Positions 17,533 through 23,171 of a stretch of DNA of 64,000 bases are shown in pieces. The position numbers and the translations under genes are program-made. The stretch is taken from assembly GCF_902150035.1 (NCBI RefSeq), contig NZ_LR597501.1:62001-126000 (forward strand). Reading direction: 5' to 3'. Numbering within the stretch: position 1 is the first letter of the stretch; each line of letters opens with the position of its first letter. The stretch is from Enorma burkinafasonensis. Its GTDB lineage: Bacteria; Actinomycetota; Coriobacteriia; Coriobacteriales; Coriobacteriaceae. Under the pieces are notes generated by a model that made no database searches, had not been told where the DNA came from, and saw only the letters and a program-made list of their open reading frames with translations.

Positions 17533-18780
17533 TTAGCAAAACGCCGCCGCAAGCGCAGAACAACGGTTTTCGAAGACTGGGGCGAACAAACTAATCTCTG
17601 ATTTCTGACACCCTGCCTTCCTTGCGACCAGCTGCCAGGATCTCATCGCTGTGACGACTCGGCTCACGATGCGACGCGCATCTCCATCCGAGATGCCGCA
17701 CAATGAAGCGAGAGCGCGAAGCCCTTCAATCTCTCCATCAGCTGTCTCCCCATATATCCCCGTAACCCGCGGTTCCGAAAGATCAAGGTTCGGGTTCACG
17801 TCGAAACATGGAGACAGCTTCCAAGCTTGTCCGGATCGTATGAAACCGATGTTGCGCAGGTGGTCATCGGTATTGTGCAGGGCAACATAGAGAACCACAC
17901 GGGTGAATAGGTCGCATAGCGCAGCTTCGGCATCGTTCACCGCGTCGACAAGCGCTTCGGCGAGCTCAGCATAATCACGGAAATCACCATCTTGAGCTTG
18001 AAGCAAGGTCATTGCGCTCATGTAAGGCAGACGTCTCCCCTGGAGCAGGCTATCAGCGCGATCGAAGCGCTCAAGCAGCAATACATCATCGGATCCAATG
18101 GAAACAAGATGGCTCACAGGAACGGACAAACCAACCTTGGCGGCCATGGAAAGGGCAAAATGCTCCCAACGCATGGTATGTACCTCATCGCCTGGATGTG
18201 AGAACTTGGCCAGCAGAAGCCGCGCGCCATCGACCACCGATGCCTTTGGACGAGCTCCACCAAGCGAGCCGGATCCCGCATCAAGCAGAGTCTTGATATC
18301 TTCAACGTCACCAAGTTCAGTAGCTATTCGATTACTCGCCACTAGAAGACGCGGCAACTCGATGCGCGGGGGAACATCCGACTCTGCGGCTAATCGAAGA
18401 CTCGTCCCCGTTTGAGCATAGCGGAGCGCGCCTTGACGGGCGGCATCATGCACGCCAAGGAGATAATCAACGTCATCCAACGTCCGAACGGCTTCGCGTT
18501 CCTCGCGTTGCGAGCGAAGTCTCCTAGAGATGAGGTGCCTCCCCCAACGATCGGGAGCGGAATCGCGAAATACCCCAGGGAGTCCGTCCGTATAGCTTGC
18601 GCTTGCCTGCAAAGGAAGTCCAGGATCGATGCTAAATGCGTCATTAGAGTCAAGATACGCCTCATCGTAGATAAACGAAGTCGACACACGCCCTTTCCTC
18701 AAATTGAAGCGGGCGCGCCCCACGAGGGCATCCTGGCCGTTTTCACCCGTGGAGAGATAGACGTCTACTGAGGGGATCAC
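17533..18780 (-). CDS. hipA: HipA-family serine/threonine kinase toxin
   Basis: 415 aa. HipA toxins phosphorylate a translation component (GltX in E. coli) and induce dormancy; HipB neutralises them. An N-terminal HipA_N-like region spans about 10-110 (GLPGVFRDSAPDRWG at 66-80). The kinase part has the glycine-rich loop GSLGGARPK (171-179), catalytic HNTDDHLRN (302-310) and the metal-binding aspartate in LSPCFDVNPN (322-331). All look intact, so the toxin is probably active. The start is GTG at 18780, overlapping the hipB stop as GTGA, so antitoxin is made first. A hand-counted 60-base block (18061-18120) is 48% GC, below the neighbours, which suggests horizontal origin. Confidence 0.93.
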   Translation of the reverse strand: MIPSVDVYLSTGENGQDALVGRARFNLRKGRVSTSFIYDEAYLDSNDAFSIDPGLPLQASASYTDGLPGVFRDSAPDRWGRHLISRRLRSQREEREAVRTLDDVDYLLGVHDAARQGALRYAQTGTSLRLAAESDVPPRIELPRLLVASNRIATELGDVEDIKTLLDAGSGSLGGARPKASVVDGARLLLAKFSHPGDEVHTMRWEHFALSMAAKVGLSVPVSHLVSIGSDDVLLLERFDRADSLLQGRRLPYMSAMTLLQAQDGDFRDYAELAEALVDAVNDAEAALCDLFTRVVLYVALHNTDDHLRNIGFIRSGQAWKLSPCFDVNPNLDLSEPRVTGIYGETADGEIEGLRALASLCGISDGDARRIVSRVVTAMRSWQLVARKAGCQKSEISLFAPVFENRCSALAAAFC

Positions 18781-19082
18781 ACCTGCCTCCTTACGCGTTG
18801 GGGAAGCTCATGGTCTGCACGAATGCGCCCAATCTCGGTCTCATAGGGGTCGGTCGCCTCGATCACGCGGTCGAGAATGCCGAGTGTGCGACAGATGTTC
18901 AGCACGGTGGCGAAGCTTACCGTGGGGTCGCCGTTCTCGATGCGCGAAAGCGTGCTGCGGGAAACGGCGGCTTTTGCAGCAACCTGTTCAGAGGTGAGCT
19001 TGTGCATCTTCCGCCACGTGGCAAGGTTCTCCCCCACCTGTTTGGCGGCAAGTTTGGTGCGTATGGGGATCGGTCGCTTCAT
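18777..19082 (-). CDS. hipB: HipB-type XRE-family antitoxin and autorepressor
   Basis: 101 aa. A single helix-turn-helix of the Cro/CI type covers about residues 16-70, with LTSEQVAAKAAVSRSTLSRI as the recognition region. HipB proteins bind operators as dimers, repress their own operon and hold HipA inactive. The basic N-terminus (MKRPIPIRTKLAAK) and the short C-terminal tail after residue 75 are unassigned. It is the promoter-proximal gene, directly preceded by a large palindromic control region, which fits autoregulation. Confidence 0.92.
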   Translation of the reverse strand: MKRPIPIRTKLAAKQVGENLATWRKMHKLTSEQVAAKAAVSRSTLSRIENGDPTVSFATVLNICRTLGILDRVIEATDPYETEIGRIRADHELPQRVRRQV

Positions 19083-19090
19083 GAACGATA

Positions 19091-19151
19091 GCCTAACGTC
19101 TGGTATTTAAGACACTATTCTAGATAGTGTAGCATATTCCAGACGTTAGGC
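19091..19151. promoter_or_regulatory. Double concentric palindrome: probable HipB operator
   Basis: Outer perfect inverted repeat gcctaacgtctgg (19091-19103) with ccagacgttaggc (19139-19151), and an inner one acactat (19112-19118) with atagtgt (19124-19130). Both are centred on base 19121. The outer right arm falls in the -35/-10 spacer of the hipB promoter, and the left arm lies between the -10 and the hipB ATG. Binding by HipB is inferred. Confidence 0.75.
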
Positions 19152-19158
19152 ATATCAA
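19131..19158 (-). promoter_or_regulatory. Promoter of hipBA
   Basis: On the minus strand, -35 TTGATA (19153-19158), 16-nt spacer, -10 TATGCT (19131-19136), about 49 nt upstream of the hipB ATG. The spacer contains one arm of the large palindrome, so repressor and polymerase would compete. Confidence 0.65.
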
Positions 19159-19175: not shown

Positions 19176-21062
19176 CTATCGGCAAGTCCTCTTGCGGAGA
19201 CCAGCAGCGACGAGTGCTATGCCGAAGATCCCGGCCAGCGCGCAGGCCATAGGCGCCACGTCGCCCGTGGCAGGGATGGAATCCTCGTTCTTGGCAGGCT
19301 CTTCTTCGCCGCAGAGCGTGCAGACGCCGTCGACGAAATCATGACCGGTAGCGGGGATCGCCTTGCCCTTTGCGATCACGTAGCCGCAGACGGAGCAGAC
19401 CGCGTCGCCCGTGTAGCCGTCCTCGGTGCAGGTCGCGCTCTGCGCACCCTCGACCTTGGGCGCGTGCGCGGCGTGATCGAGCTTGTCGTGGCAGGCCTCG
19501 CACGCGTGCCAGTGGCCGCCCGCGTCTCTCGACCAGACGCCGGCGGGGTCGTGCTCGACCGTCACCGTGCAGGTCGCGGTCTTGTAACCGTCCTCCGTGG
19601 TGACGGTGATGGTGGCGGTGCCCGCGCCCTCGGCGGTAACGTTGCCGTTCGCGTCCACCGTGGCGACACCGGGGGCGCTGCTGCTCCACGTCACCTTCTG
19701 GTTGGTGGCGTCGGTTGGCTCCACCGTGGCGGTGAGGGTGGTCGTCTCCTTCTCCGTCAGGGTCAGGCTGGTTGCGCTCAGCGTCACGCCGGTGACGGAG
19801 ACCGTCTGCTTGGGGTCGATGATCAGGGTGTATTTCCTGCTGTCGCTGCCGCAGCTGTTTTCAGCCTTCACGGTGAAGGTGCTTGTGCCCGCCGTGATGG
19901 GGGTACCGGTAATAGTGTTTCCGTTCAGGCTCAACCCCGTAGGCAGAGAACCGCTGGTGACGCTCCATGTGATCGGTGAGGTGCCGTCGGCCGCAAGGGT
20001 CTGACTGTATTCTTCGTTTACCGTGCCGTTTGGCAGGCTTTCGGTGGTGATGGTGGGGGCATATTTCACTGTACCCGTTATCTTATCTCCACCGGTGAGG
20101 GTGCCGCCATTTACAATTACCTCATGGCTACCCGTGTTCAGGCTTGCCCCGTCCCCGATGGTCAGGCTCTCGCCCTCGCCGATCTCCAAATCCTCCTGCA
20201 AGGTCACCTCGCCGTACACAGTGCCTTCCGTTCCGTCAAAAACGATGCCAGCGCCTGATGGTGTAGGTTTATCGACACGCTCAGCTTCGATTCCGTTTTT
20301 CGCCCGCACGATGGCATTATCGGTGACGGTCAGGCTGGTGGTGGCACCGGTGGCTTGAGATGATCCCACATAAAGCAGTATCCCATCACTGTTTCCAGTG
20401 CCGCTGGCGGTCAGGCTGCCGCCGTCGACGGAAAGAGAGATATTCGGGTAGTTGGTAGCGTACGTGCTGGACATCACATAGACGCCGGCGGCATAATTGA
20501 CATTGGTGCTGCTTGTGACAGCGACATTCTTGATGTTCAGGGAGGCGTTGCCTGTTCCGCTTTTGACAAATATGCCGTGGCTATTTGTGCCGGTAACTAT
20601 GAGACTGCCGTTACCAGTGATATTTAGGGAGGCATCTGTACCGTAGCTATTAGCTGACATCTCAGCATTCACATAGATTCCAAAGTTGCCTGTGATGGTA
20701 TTTTCGCCAATCAGTTCGATGGTCAGGGTAACTGGTTGACCGCTGTTGCACTGAGCATAGATCCCGGCGCCATAAGGAACTGATGAAATACTGTCGTTTC
20801 CCGTGATCGTCGCCCCATTTAAGGTCAGGGTTGCGGTGCTGGGGTCGTATTTGACAGTCCAATCGTTTTCACTGCCATCTACCAGACTACCTTGTGTTGA
20901 ACCTGCTTTTAAGTAGGTTGTCGCATTACCGATTGTAATCTGGTAATTGCCCACATACAGTGTTGTAGGGGCATATTCCGCTACCGCCAGCGCCGTGGCG
21001 GGGAGCGCAACTAAACAGAGCAGTGCCGCAACGAACACGGTCGCAATCGTTCTTTTCAGCAT
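19176..21062 (-). CDS. Sortase-type cell-surface protein with beta-rich, Ig-like and BIG2 domains
   Basis: 628 aa. Signal peptide at 1-26 (MLKRTIATVFVAALLCLVAL, cleavage likely after ATALA). Residues about 30-330 are Gly/Asn/Thr-rich, with repeated short strands (LNITGNGSLIV, LNIKNVAV, SLSVDGGSLTAS), like a right-handed beta-helix or carbohydrate-binding region. A putative Ig domain covers 336-416, a BIG2 domain 421-502, and a Cys/His module 515-585. The C-terminus has IPATGD (596-601), a hydrophobic stretch and RKRTCR: an LPxTG-like sorting signal. The start at 21062 is chosen because GGAGG lies 6 nt before it, whereas for the ATG at 21068 it would abut. Probably an adhesin; ligand unknown. 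Confidence 0.88.
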   Translation of the reverse strand: MLKRTIATVFVAALLCLVALPATALAVAEYAPTTLYVGNYQITIGNATTYLKAGSTQGSLVDGSENDWTVKYDPSTATLTLNGATITGNDSISSVPYGAGIYAQCNSGQPVTLTIELIGENTITGNFGIYVNAEMSANSYGTDASLNITGNGSLIVTGTNSHGIFVKSGTGNASLNIKNVAVTSSTNVNYAAGVYVMSSTYATNYPNISLSVDGGSLTASGTGNSDGILLYVGSSQATGATTSLTVTDNAIVRAKNGIEAERVDKPTPSGAGIVFDGTEGTVYGEVTLQEDLEIGEGESLTIGDGASLNTGSHEVIVNGGTLTGGDKITGTVKYAPTITTESLPNGTVNEEYSQTLAADGTSPITWSVTSGSLPTGLSLNGNTITGTPITAGTSTFTVKAENSCGSDSRKYTLIIDPKQTVSVTGVTLSATSLTLTEKETTTLTATVEPTDATNQKVTWSSSAPGVATVDANGNVTAEGAGTATITVTTEDGYKTATCTVTVEHDPAGVWSRDAGGHWHACEACHDKLDHAAHAPKVEGAQSATCTEDGYTGDAVCSVCGYVIAKGKAIPATGHDFVDGVCTLCGEEEPAKNEDSIPATGDVAPMACALAGIFGIALVAAGLRKRTCR

Positions 21063-21231
21063 CTTCATCCTCCACCCAGCGTGTACGCAGTTGACGCAAC
21101 AGGTCTTGAACCCATTGTTGAGGAGGACGCGCCCTCTTCCCCTACCCGACAAGCGGGGCAATATGGGGAGAGCGGAGACGCAGCGGACACAAATTGCCTC
21201 GCAAAACTTGCTAAAGCGCCCGAAAGCCTGC

Positions 21232-22440
21232 CTACGCCAACATGAATTGCGCCAGATCCTTGCGGCTCGATACCCCGAGCTTACGGAACGCGTTGGACAG
21301 GCACTCCTTCACACGATTCACCGAAAAGCCCATATGCTCGGCAATCTCGGCGTTCGACCAGTTGCGCGAAGCGAGCATGCAGACCGCGAACTCGGTGGTG
21401 GTGAGGTTGTCCGCCACGTCGTCGGCCGTCGAGGGGTTGTGGACGCGCCGCCAGCCGGCGCTGAAGCGGTACGTGATGTCGATCATGCGCTTGAAGTCGT
21501 CCGGCCACGCGGGTTTGATCGCGGCTTCGAGCATGCCACCAAGAAGGCCGTGATGCTCGCCAAAGGGCTGGATGAGGCCGTCCGGGCGCGCGATGTCCCA
21601 GGCGGCGAGGACGTGCTGGCGCGCCTCGTCGGTGCGGCGAAGCGCCATGAGGCTCATGACGGCCGCGAGGTGCAGGTAGATGGCCGGTATGGGATAGAGC
21701 GTATCTGCCATGGCAAAGGCGCCCAGCACGATGCCGTAGCTCTGCTCGTAGGCGCCCTCGAGGTATAGGCGGTGCGCCTTGACGTAACAGGCGAAGAGCC
21801 TAAGGCCGGGCGGCAAGAGCGGGAGCAGGTCGGGTGCGGGTTGTGCGGGCTTAGGTGCAGGCAGATGCAACAGGGCGCTCGCGGCGTTGCCGATGAAGGC
21901 CGCCATGGCCGTTACCTCAGGAGGCGTACCCCCCCCCATTTCGGAATTCAGGTTGCCGAGGGCGCCGTCGAGCGCGAAGCGGGCATCGTTGATGCGGCCG
22001 AGGGTGAGGTTCGAGAACGCGCAGATGAAGCAGGCGGAGAGGCGCGCCTCGGCGTCGGCACTCTTGAGGAGCGGGGCGGCAAGGTCGCGCGCACGCTCCG
22101 CGTCGCCGGAGAAGTAGGCGAGCTCGGCCTGCGCGACGGACGCGCGCGTACCGTTCGCGAGTGAGGCAACAAATGCCTTCGCAGTTCCCGGAGTATAGGC
22201 AGTACCCATAAGCGGCATGAGGTTCTGGAAGGAGGATGTGGGACGTGGGGTTGGTACCTGCGGCGTGGAAGTACGCTCTCCCCTGCGCGGGTCGTCGGGC
22301 TTGACCGTGCCCTCGGGGATGCGCCAGCTGCCGCCGAGCTTCTCGGCACCCGCGATGCGCCCCTGCTTGCAGTAGCGCTGCACGAGGCGCGTCGTCACGC
22401 CCCAGCGACGCGCCGCCTCCTCTGCCGTGATGTAGCGCAT
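21232..22440 (-). CDS. Transcription regulator with N-terminal excisionase-like HTH and C-terminal LuxR HTH
   Basis: 402 aa. Residues 1-45 (RWGVTTRLVQRYCKQGRI and a following GGSWRIP turn) match the small winged HTH found in excisionases and MerR-like proteins. Residues about 100-335 are helical, with TPR-like repeats. Residues 346-402 are a LuxR/GerE domain (LTTTEFAVCMLASRN, NAEIAEHMGFSVNRVKECL). No receiver or autoinducer domain is seen. The ATG at 22440 follows GGGGAG. It is immediately upstream of the surface-protein gene in the same orientation and probably controls it; that is inference. Confidence 0.85.
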   Translation of the reverse strand: MRYITAEEAARRWGVTTRLVQRYCKQGRIAGAEKLGGSWRIPEGTVKPDDPRRGERTSTPQVPTPRPTSSFQNLMPLMGTAYTPGTAKAFVASLANGTRASVAQAELAYFSGDAERARDLAAPLLKSADAEARLSACFICAFSNLTLGRINDARFALDGALGNLNSEMGGGTPPEVTAMAAFIGNAASALLHLPAPKPAQPAPDLLPLLPPGLRLFACYVKAHRLYLEGAYEQSYGIVLGAFAMADTLYPIPAIYLHLAAVMSLMALRRTDEARQHVLAAWDIARPDGLIQPFGEHHGLLGGMLEAAIKPAWPDDFKRMIDITYRFSAGWRRVHNPSTADDVADNLTTTEFAVCMLASRNWSNAEIAEHMGFSVNRVKECLSNAFRKLGVSSRKDLAQFMLA

Positions 22441-22482
22441 GCGCTCCCCTTCCGTGCAATTAGATGCCCTGTGCTTGGAAGC

Positions 22483-22516
22483 AGCATAGCAGAACGAACG
22501 GTTCGTCAAAACGAAC
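22483..22516 (-). promoter_or_regulatory. Promoter and palindromic operator of the LuxR-type regulator gene
   Basis: On the minus strand, -35 TTGACG (22504-22509) and -10 TATGCT (22483-22488) are 15 nt apart; reading the -35 as TTTGAC gives 16. The palindrome acgaac-g-gttcgt (22494-22506) occupies the spacer, and acgaac recurs at 22511-22516. Layout suggests repression or autoregulation. Confidence 0.5.
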
Positions 22517-22546
22517 AGAAAAAGGCCAGGCATCGAGTCTGGCCTT
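22517..22546 (-). terminator. Rho-independent terminator after the CAT-anticodon tRNA
   Basis: On the minus strand AAGGCCAG / CTGGCC arms around a 9-nt loop are followed by TTTTTCTG. It lies 8 nt beyond the tRNA 3' end. Confidence 0.85.
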
Positions 22547-22554
22547 GAAATACT

Positions 22555-22630
22555 TGGTGGGCCCTGGGGGATTCGAACCCTCAACCCAGGGATTATGAGT
22601 CCCCTGCGCTAACCGTTGCGCCAAGAGCCC
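22555..22630 (-). tRNA. tRNA with CAT anticodon (tRNA-Met, or tRNA-Ile2 read after lysidine modification)
   Basis: 76-nt cloverleaf with encoded CCA. Acceptor GGGCTCT/AGGGCCC, anticodon stem GGGGA/TCCCT around CTCATAA, so the anticodon is CAT. A paired first base pair excludes the usual initiator. The loop CTCATAA occurs both in elongator Met and in Ile2 species, so the amino acid cannot be fixed from this copy alone. Confidence 0.9.
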
Positions 22631-22797: not shown

Positions 22798-23171
22798 GCG
22801 GAAATCCCAACTTTTTTGGAATTGTGCGCAACATAGAGACCCCGGCTTTCTCTATCATACGTTCTAACAGGGATTATCATGTGATATCTCTCTAGACTCG
22901 AATAAATCTCAAGCGGTTATCGAATTTCCGCAGTCTGCCGACCTCATATCGACCCAACGAAATACTAGTGACAGATCAGCGTCTCTGCCTCTAGGGCCGC
23001 CACGAATACCCTCCCCGGTGCGGACCCCCTGGAGAGCATCCTGTGTATGGCTTTTACATCCTGTTGGAGCCATATGCACATCTATCGGCCACCGAGATGT
23101 GCAAATAGCTCCAACAGGATCGAGGTTGCATACGCAGGATGCGTTCGGGGGCTACAGGGCGCGTGCCTACA
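22798..23171. other. Gene-free, comparatively AT-rich intergenic DNA
   Basis: No credible reading frame on either strand. The left part (to about 23030) is AT-richer than the flanks and shows no motif I recognise. The right part holds the large hairpin at 23036-23142. It separates the tRNA-Ala promoter from the proS terminator. Confidence 0.6.
23036..23142. repeat. 107-nt interrupted palindrome (long hairpin)
   Basis: Three nested arm pairs share one centre: 23036-23049 with 23129-23142 (14 bp, one G-U-compatible mismatch), atcctgttggagc 23058-23070 with 23108-23120 (13 bp perfect), and tgcacatct 23075-23083 with 23095-23103 (9 bp perfect). The internal loops are symmetric (8/8 and 4/4) and the apical loop has 11 nt. 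No U tract follows on either strand. Function unknown. Confidence 0.85.

Follow-up and report, generated by a model that had tools for sequence, protein, structure and literature searches.

In Escherichia coli K-12, HipB represses its own operon with HipA as the co-repressor, and the hipBA promoter contains four palindromic HipB operators, O1–O4, with the sequence TATCC-N8-GGATA. These operators are located at −125, −97, −58, and −30, and their centres are accordingly 28, 39, and 28 bp apart (PMC3920265). The assembly of HipA, HipB, and the operators in E. coli has been linked to persistence, and hipA7 is thought to disturb the HipA dimerization at the promoter (PMC7029023). In Caulobacter crescentus, a series of inverted repeats precedes hipBA1 and hipBA2, at intervals described as consistent with the E. 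coli complex (PMC7029023). In the tricistronic hipBST operon of Legionella pneumophila, which also encodes HipS, the HipB-type protein binds to imperfect inverted repeats 5′ of the operon, in the form of three 18-nt sites separated by 53-bp gaps (PMC10653801).

The locus analysed here, in a 64-kb stretch of DNA (hereafter called the “window”), has the layout of a hipBA type II toxin–antitoxin system, in which the gene for an HTH antitoxin lies immediately 5′ of the gene for a HipA-family kinase, with the hipA start at 18780. Unlike the Legionella hipBST operon, it is bicistronic and its HipA retains the N-terminal domain: the Couple_hipA domain is inside the 415-aa kinase, and no gene separates hipB from hipA. 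The hipB product scores below the curated cut-offs of the NCBIfam antitoxin models (TIGR03070, 44.5 bits versus 71.65; HipB equivalog, 23.4 versus 79), and is predicted to be a divergent HipB outside the E. coli-type equivalog. The next gene upstream (19176–21161, minus strand) encodes a Big_2/He_PIG Ig-like protein whose end carries a sortase-like motif (IPATGD) and a hydrophobic tail. Beyond it, the open reading frame at 21232–22584 (minus strand) encodes HTH_17 and LuxR-type GerE domains; its listed start overlaps the tRNA gene at 22558–22630, so the gene probably starts further downstream.

Features of the hipBA locus and its promoter region (window coordinates)
Feature	Position	Strand	Description
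hipA	17533..18780	-	415 aa, HipA-family kinase; Couple_hipA and HipA_C domains above cut-off
hipB	18777..19082	-	101 aa, Cro/C1-type HTH antitoxin/repressor; HTH_31/HTH_3 domains
Outer palindrome arm, proximal	19091..19103	-	CCAGACGTTAGGC; O2 outer half-site and flanks
Candidate operator O2	19094..19117	-	TAGTGTCT TAAATACC AGACGTTA, centre 19105.5; in hipB leader
Inner palindrome	19112..19130	-	ACACTAT-5-ATAGTGT, arms 19112–19118/19124–19130; two inner half-sites face to face
Linker between O1 and O2	19118..19124	-	7 bp, TCTAGAA; 4/7 bases variable in two relatives
Candidate operator O1	19125..19148	-	TAACGTCT GGAATATG CTACACTA, centre 19136.5; contains −10 box
Predicted promoter	19131..19158	-	TTGATA-16-TATGCT; −10 within O1
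Outer palindrome arm, distal	19139..19151	-	GCCTAACGTCTGG; O1 outer half-site and flanks

The earlier note described the promoter as two concentric palindromes, and its coordinates and bases are exact: the 13-bp outer arms and the 7-bp inner arms are perfect, with a common centre at 19121. The promoter it named is also the sole sigma70-like match in 700 bp (shuffle mean, 0.2). In a repeat search, both palindromes merge into one 28-nt inverted repeat (19091–19118/19124–19151), with 82% complementarity and a 5-nt gap between its arms. Within the window, just one further place has a perfect 13-bp arm lying no more than 40 nt from its symmetry centre, and three places in all, this one included, combine two distinct perfect runs of 7 bp or longer about a shared centre (11390.5, 19121, and 23089). 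The four-half-site score of the hipB promoter at 31 bp has a p-value of 0.005 against dinucleotide shuffles. The symmetry is real and exceeds chance, but concentric palindromes alone are not unique within the window. Positions 23060–23120, between proS and its neighbour, hold another long inverted repeat, imperfect and devoid of a T-run, in which perfect runs of 13 and 9 bp are centred at 23089.

What do the two palindromes represent? From their base identities, they are best read as the four half-sites of two predicted HipB operators of the same kind, O1 and O2. On the hipB strand, the order is TAACGTCT-GGAATATG-CTACACTA, TCTAGAA, and TAGTGTCT-TAAATACC-AGACGTTA. In a 24-bp frame that was picked after the sequences were seen, O1 and O2 are mirror-imaged imperfect palindromes, each with an 8-bp core (the N8 format), at a distance of 31 bp from centre to centre. 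Taken from each operator centre outward, both outer half-sites read AGACGTTA, and the inner ones read AGACACTA and CTACACTA. The outer half-sites share 8/8 bases with each other and the inner half-sites share 6/8, while the outer and inner half-sites share 6/8 in O2 and 4/8 in O1, in which a strong outer half-site is paired with a weak inner one. Since O2 mirrors O1, the outer half-sites match each other, as do the inner half-sites, and two concentric palindromes thereby arise. The 13-bp outer palindrome comprises the outer half-sites together with GCC/GGC and two bases of the core. Two palindromic sites of the same sequence kind, O1 and O2, thus precede hipB. The palindromes are therefore not of unrelated sequence, as had been supposed, and the idea of HipB dimers bound in different registers at one spot gives way to two symmetry centres, 19136.5 and 19105.5, in place of 19121.

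This arrangement resembles that of E. coli K-12 in having palindromic hipBA promoter sites built around an 8-bp core, that of C. crescentus in the series of upstream inverted repeats, and that of L. pneumophila in the imperfection of the repeats. It differs from E. coli K-12 in the number of sites (two versus four), the 31-bp distance, the half-site AGACGTTA, and the mirror-imaged, imperfect form of the sites. The distance here and in the relatives is 31 bp, and not the 28 bp between neighbouring centres of an E. coli-type array.

We compared the 93-bp promoter with those of two close relatives, L003 and L009, in which HipB is 100% and 97% identical, respectively. Among the three loci, 26 of the 93 bases are variable: none of the 32 half-site bases, including those of the weak inner half-site, versus 26 of the 61 bases elsewhere (P = 1.5e-6 for the whole 93 bp; P = 0.0012 for the 55-bp element alone). 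Seven of the variable bases are in the cores and the linker, and 19 are in the flanks. In both relatives, the end of a gene similar to the 19176–21161 gene is likewise located 5′ of hipB.

Next, we gathered HipB relatives throughout the class by profile and, at every spacing, scored their promoters for sets of four half-sites resembling one another. Applied to E. coli K-12 as a positive control, the scoring yields 28 and 39, which match the known sites. Among 54 non-redundant class promoters, 31 bp ranks first of 22 spacings in 35. The mean score at 31 bp is 32.9, as compared to 24.2 for dinucleotide shuffles (z = 23.9), while z stays at or below 6.1 for the rest of the spacings between 15 and 50. 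The best spacing is different in the other 19 loci, in some of which the start is badly placed or the upstream region is cut short; L035, L045, and L062 favour 30 or 32 bp. Thirteen of the relatives scored belong to other actinobacterial classes; for these, the mean is 35.8 at 31 bp and 28.2 at the next best spacing, and 31 bp is the best in 10 promoters. A weaker form of the signal is seen in 21 plasmid relatives, most of them from Pseudomonadota, with HipB identities of 28–53%: the mean is 31.1 at 31 bp versus 26.0 at the next best spacing, and 31 bp comes first, alone or in a tie, in 13. Some of the 21 are near kin of each other and do not count as independent events. In one of the plasmid loci, L114 from Thiothrix, where 31 bp is tied with 21 bp, the HipB-like gene adjoins DUF1778/GNAT genes instead of hipA.

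The earlier note had asked whether both palindromes are conserved together at related hipB loci, and had regarded a lack of the symmetry there as evidence against HipB. The operator pair at 31 bp is kept, whereas its mirror relation is common but not constant: L027, L029, and L038 have direct-repeat versions instead. The role of HipB is not refuted by this comparison. Paired palindromic HipB operators are known, and the variant described here is the 31-bp rule with the mirrored layout. We found no such rule for HipB operators in the open literature, a search whose reach did not extend to the main experimental HipB-operator papers.

Which protein binds to these sites? Different recognition helices go with different half-site consensus sequences: HipBs with SR(S/A)T(L/I)SR are accompanied by AGACGTTA-like half-sites and those with SVPTVRK by TTTCTGTTA, while the 31-bp spacing is unchanged. 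This link follows the phylogeny, which alone would also make the sites and helices co-vary. Moreover, the highest-scoring 31-bp operator pair of all the promoters is that of L011, yet no hipA is present within about 1.5 kb; therefore, the sites go with hipB. The helix-linked half-sites and the hipA-less loci favour HipB itself as the probable binder. Further downstream of hipB in L011 (genome G046) is a RelE-like gene. In L086 and L087 (G097 and G068), no recognisable hipA is present in about 1.5 kb downstream of hipB, and an aldo-keto reductase-like gene is next. A relaxed operator pattern provided no evidence of a wider regulon in the genome, with 152 matches versus 209 for the reversed control, per strand; one match with a single mismatch is located elsewhere, at G000:C4:12648. 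No HipB relative was found in phages, and a phage origin was rejected for this reason.

Could the symmetry function in RNA rather than in DNA? The 61-bp inverted repeat could form a hairpin in read-through transcripts from the upstream surface-protein gene, and thereby end or process the mRNA or hide the hipB ribosome site. Consistently, a scan of the interval between the two genes revealed nothing terminator-like, and the 93-nt region folds with −34.1 kcal/mol (z = −6.5 versus shuffles). However, the repeat has neither a T-run nor an Rfam match. In a transcript from the predicted promoter, the distal arm would precede the start, leaving a leader with a z-value of only −0.6 against shuffles. 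Among 44 relatives, the median RNA z-value is −2.05, with just 22 falling under −2, yet the 31-bp operator signal is there, and the direct-repeat relatives cannot form the hairpin at all. We thus consider this explanation very unlikely, and reject the hairpin as a conserved entity, since the leader folds no more stably than its shuffles and half of the relatives lack a strong fold.

The proposal that two different regulators act at one spot, one on each palindrome, is less probable still. The outer and inner arms indeed differ at first sight, but they belong to one motif as its half-sites, neither set varies in the close relatives, and many divergent hipB loci have the pair at the same 31-bp distance. 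From the earlier interpretation, the hipBA autoregulatory promoter and the two HipB dimers are retained, while the unrelated sequences, different registers, and two regulators are abandoned. Long palindromes are often mobile, but the insertion of a mobile or repeated palindromic element into the promoter has a negligible chance and was rejected, because a 121-bp query matches the genome at the single hipB locus only (once per strand, by its own symmetry), and among 197 relatives it matches only the hipB locus of two other genomes.

The region is thus very probably the autoregulatory operator of hipBA, with two mirrored 24-bp pseudo-palindromes of the same kind, 31 bp apart, each accommodating one HipB dimer. 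We propose that one dimer, with or without HipA, would bind to each of O1 and O2. As the centres are separated by 31 bp, or about three turns of B-DNA (10.5 bp per turn), both dimers would be on the same face of the DNA. There, they could touch or be bridged, possibly by HipA as in E. coli, and with such contact or bridging within reach, the binding would probably be cooperative. The dimer on O1 would cover the −10 box and block RNA polymerase, and the dimer on O2, in the leader, would strengthen the repression.

It also seems reasonably likely that repression in a large, multi-phylum HipB branch employs a two-dimer assembly with a fixed 31-bp geometry, unlike the 28 bp of E. coli. The distance would be set by direct HipB–HipB contact (or by kinase bridging, where the kinase is present), because the spacing is fixed while the half-sites change, even without hipA nearby. 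From a 31-bp spacing that is fixed across phyla, a different assembly geometry is predicted for most of the HipB relatives in the branch; the rule also offers a simple means to find and annotate their operators. The natural pairs of recognition helices and half-sites should be useful for studying specificity changes in HTH antitoxins.

A HipB-like domain, comprising the HTH and a conserved PKRVRK tail, is also fused to an alpha-amylase catalytic domain in a protein of 540–550 aa, encoded in two Coriobacteriia genomes (L128:2-1648, minus strand; L129:1374-2999, plus strand). L129 may carry a weak 31-bp operator pair, and L128 does not. Judging from open frames of 500–700 aa, the fusion is probably present in other Coriobacteriia as well.
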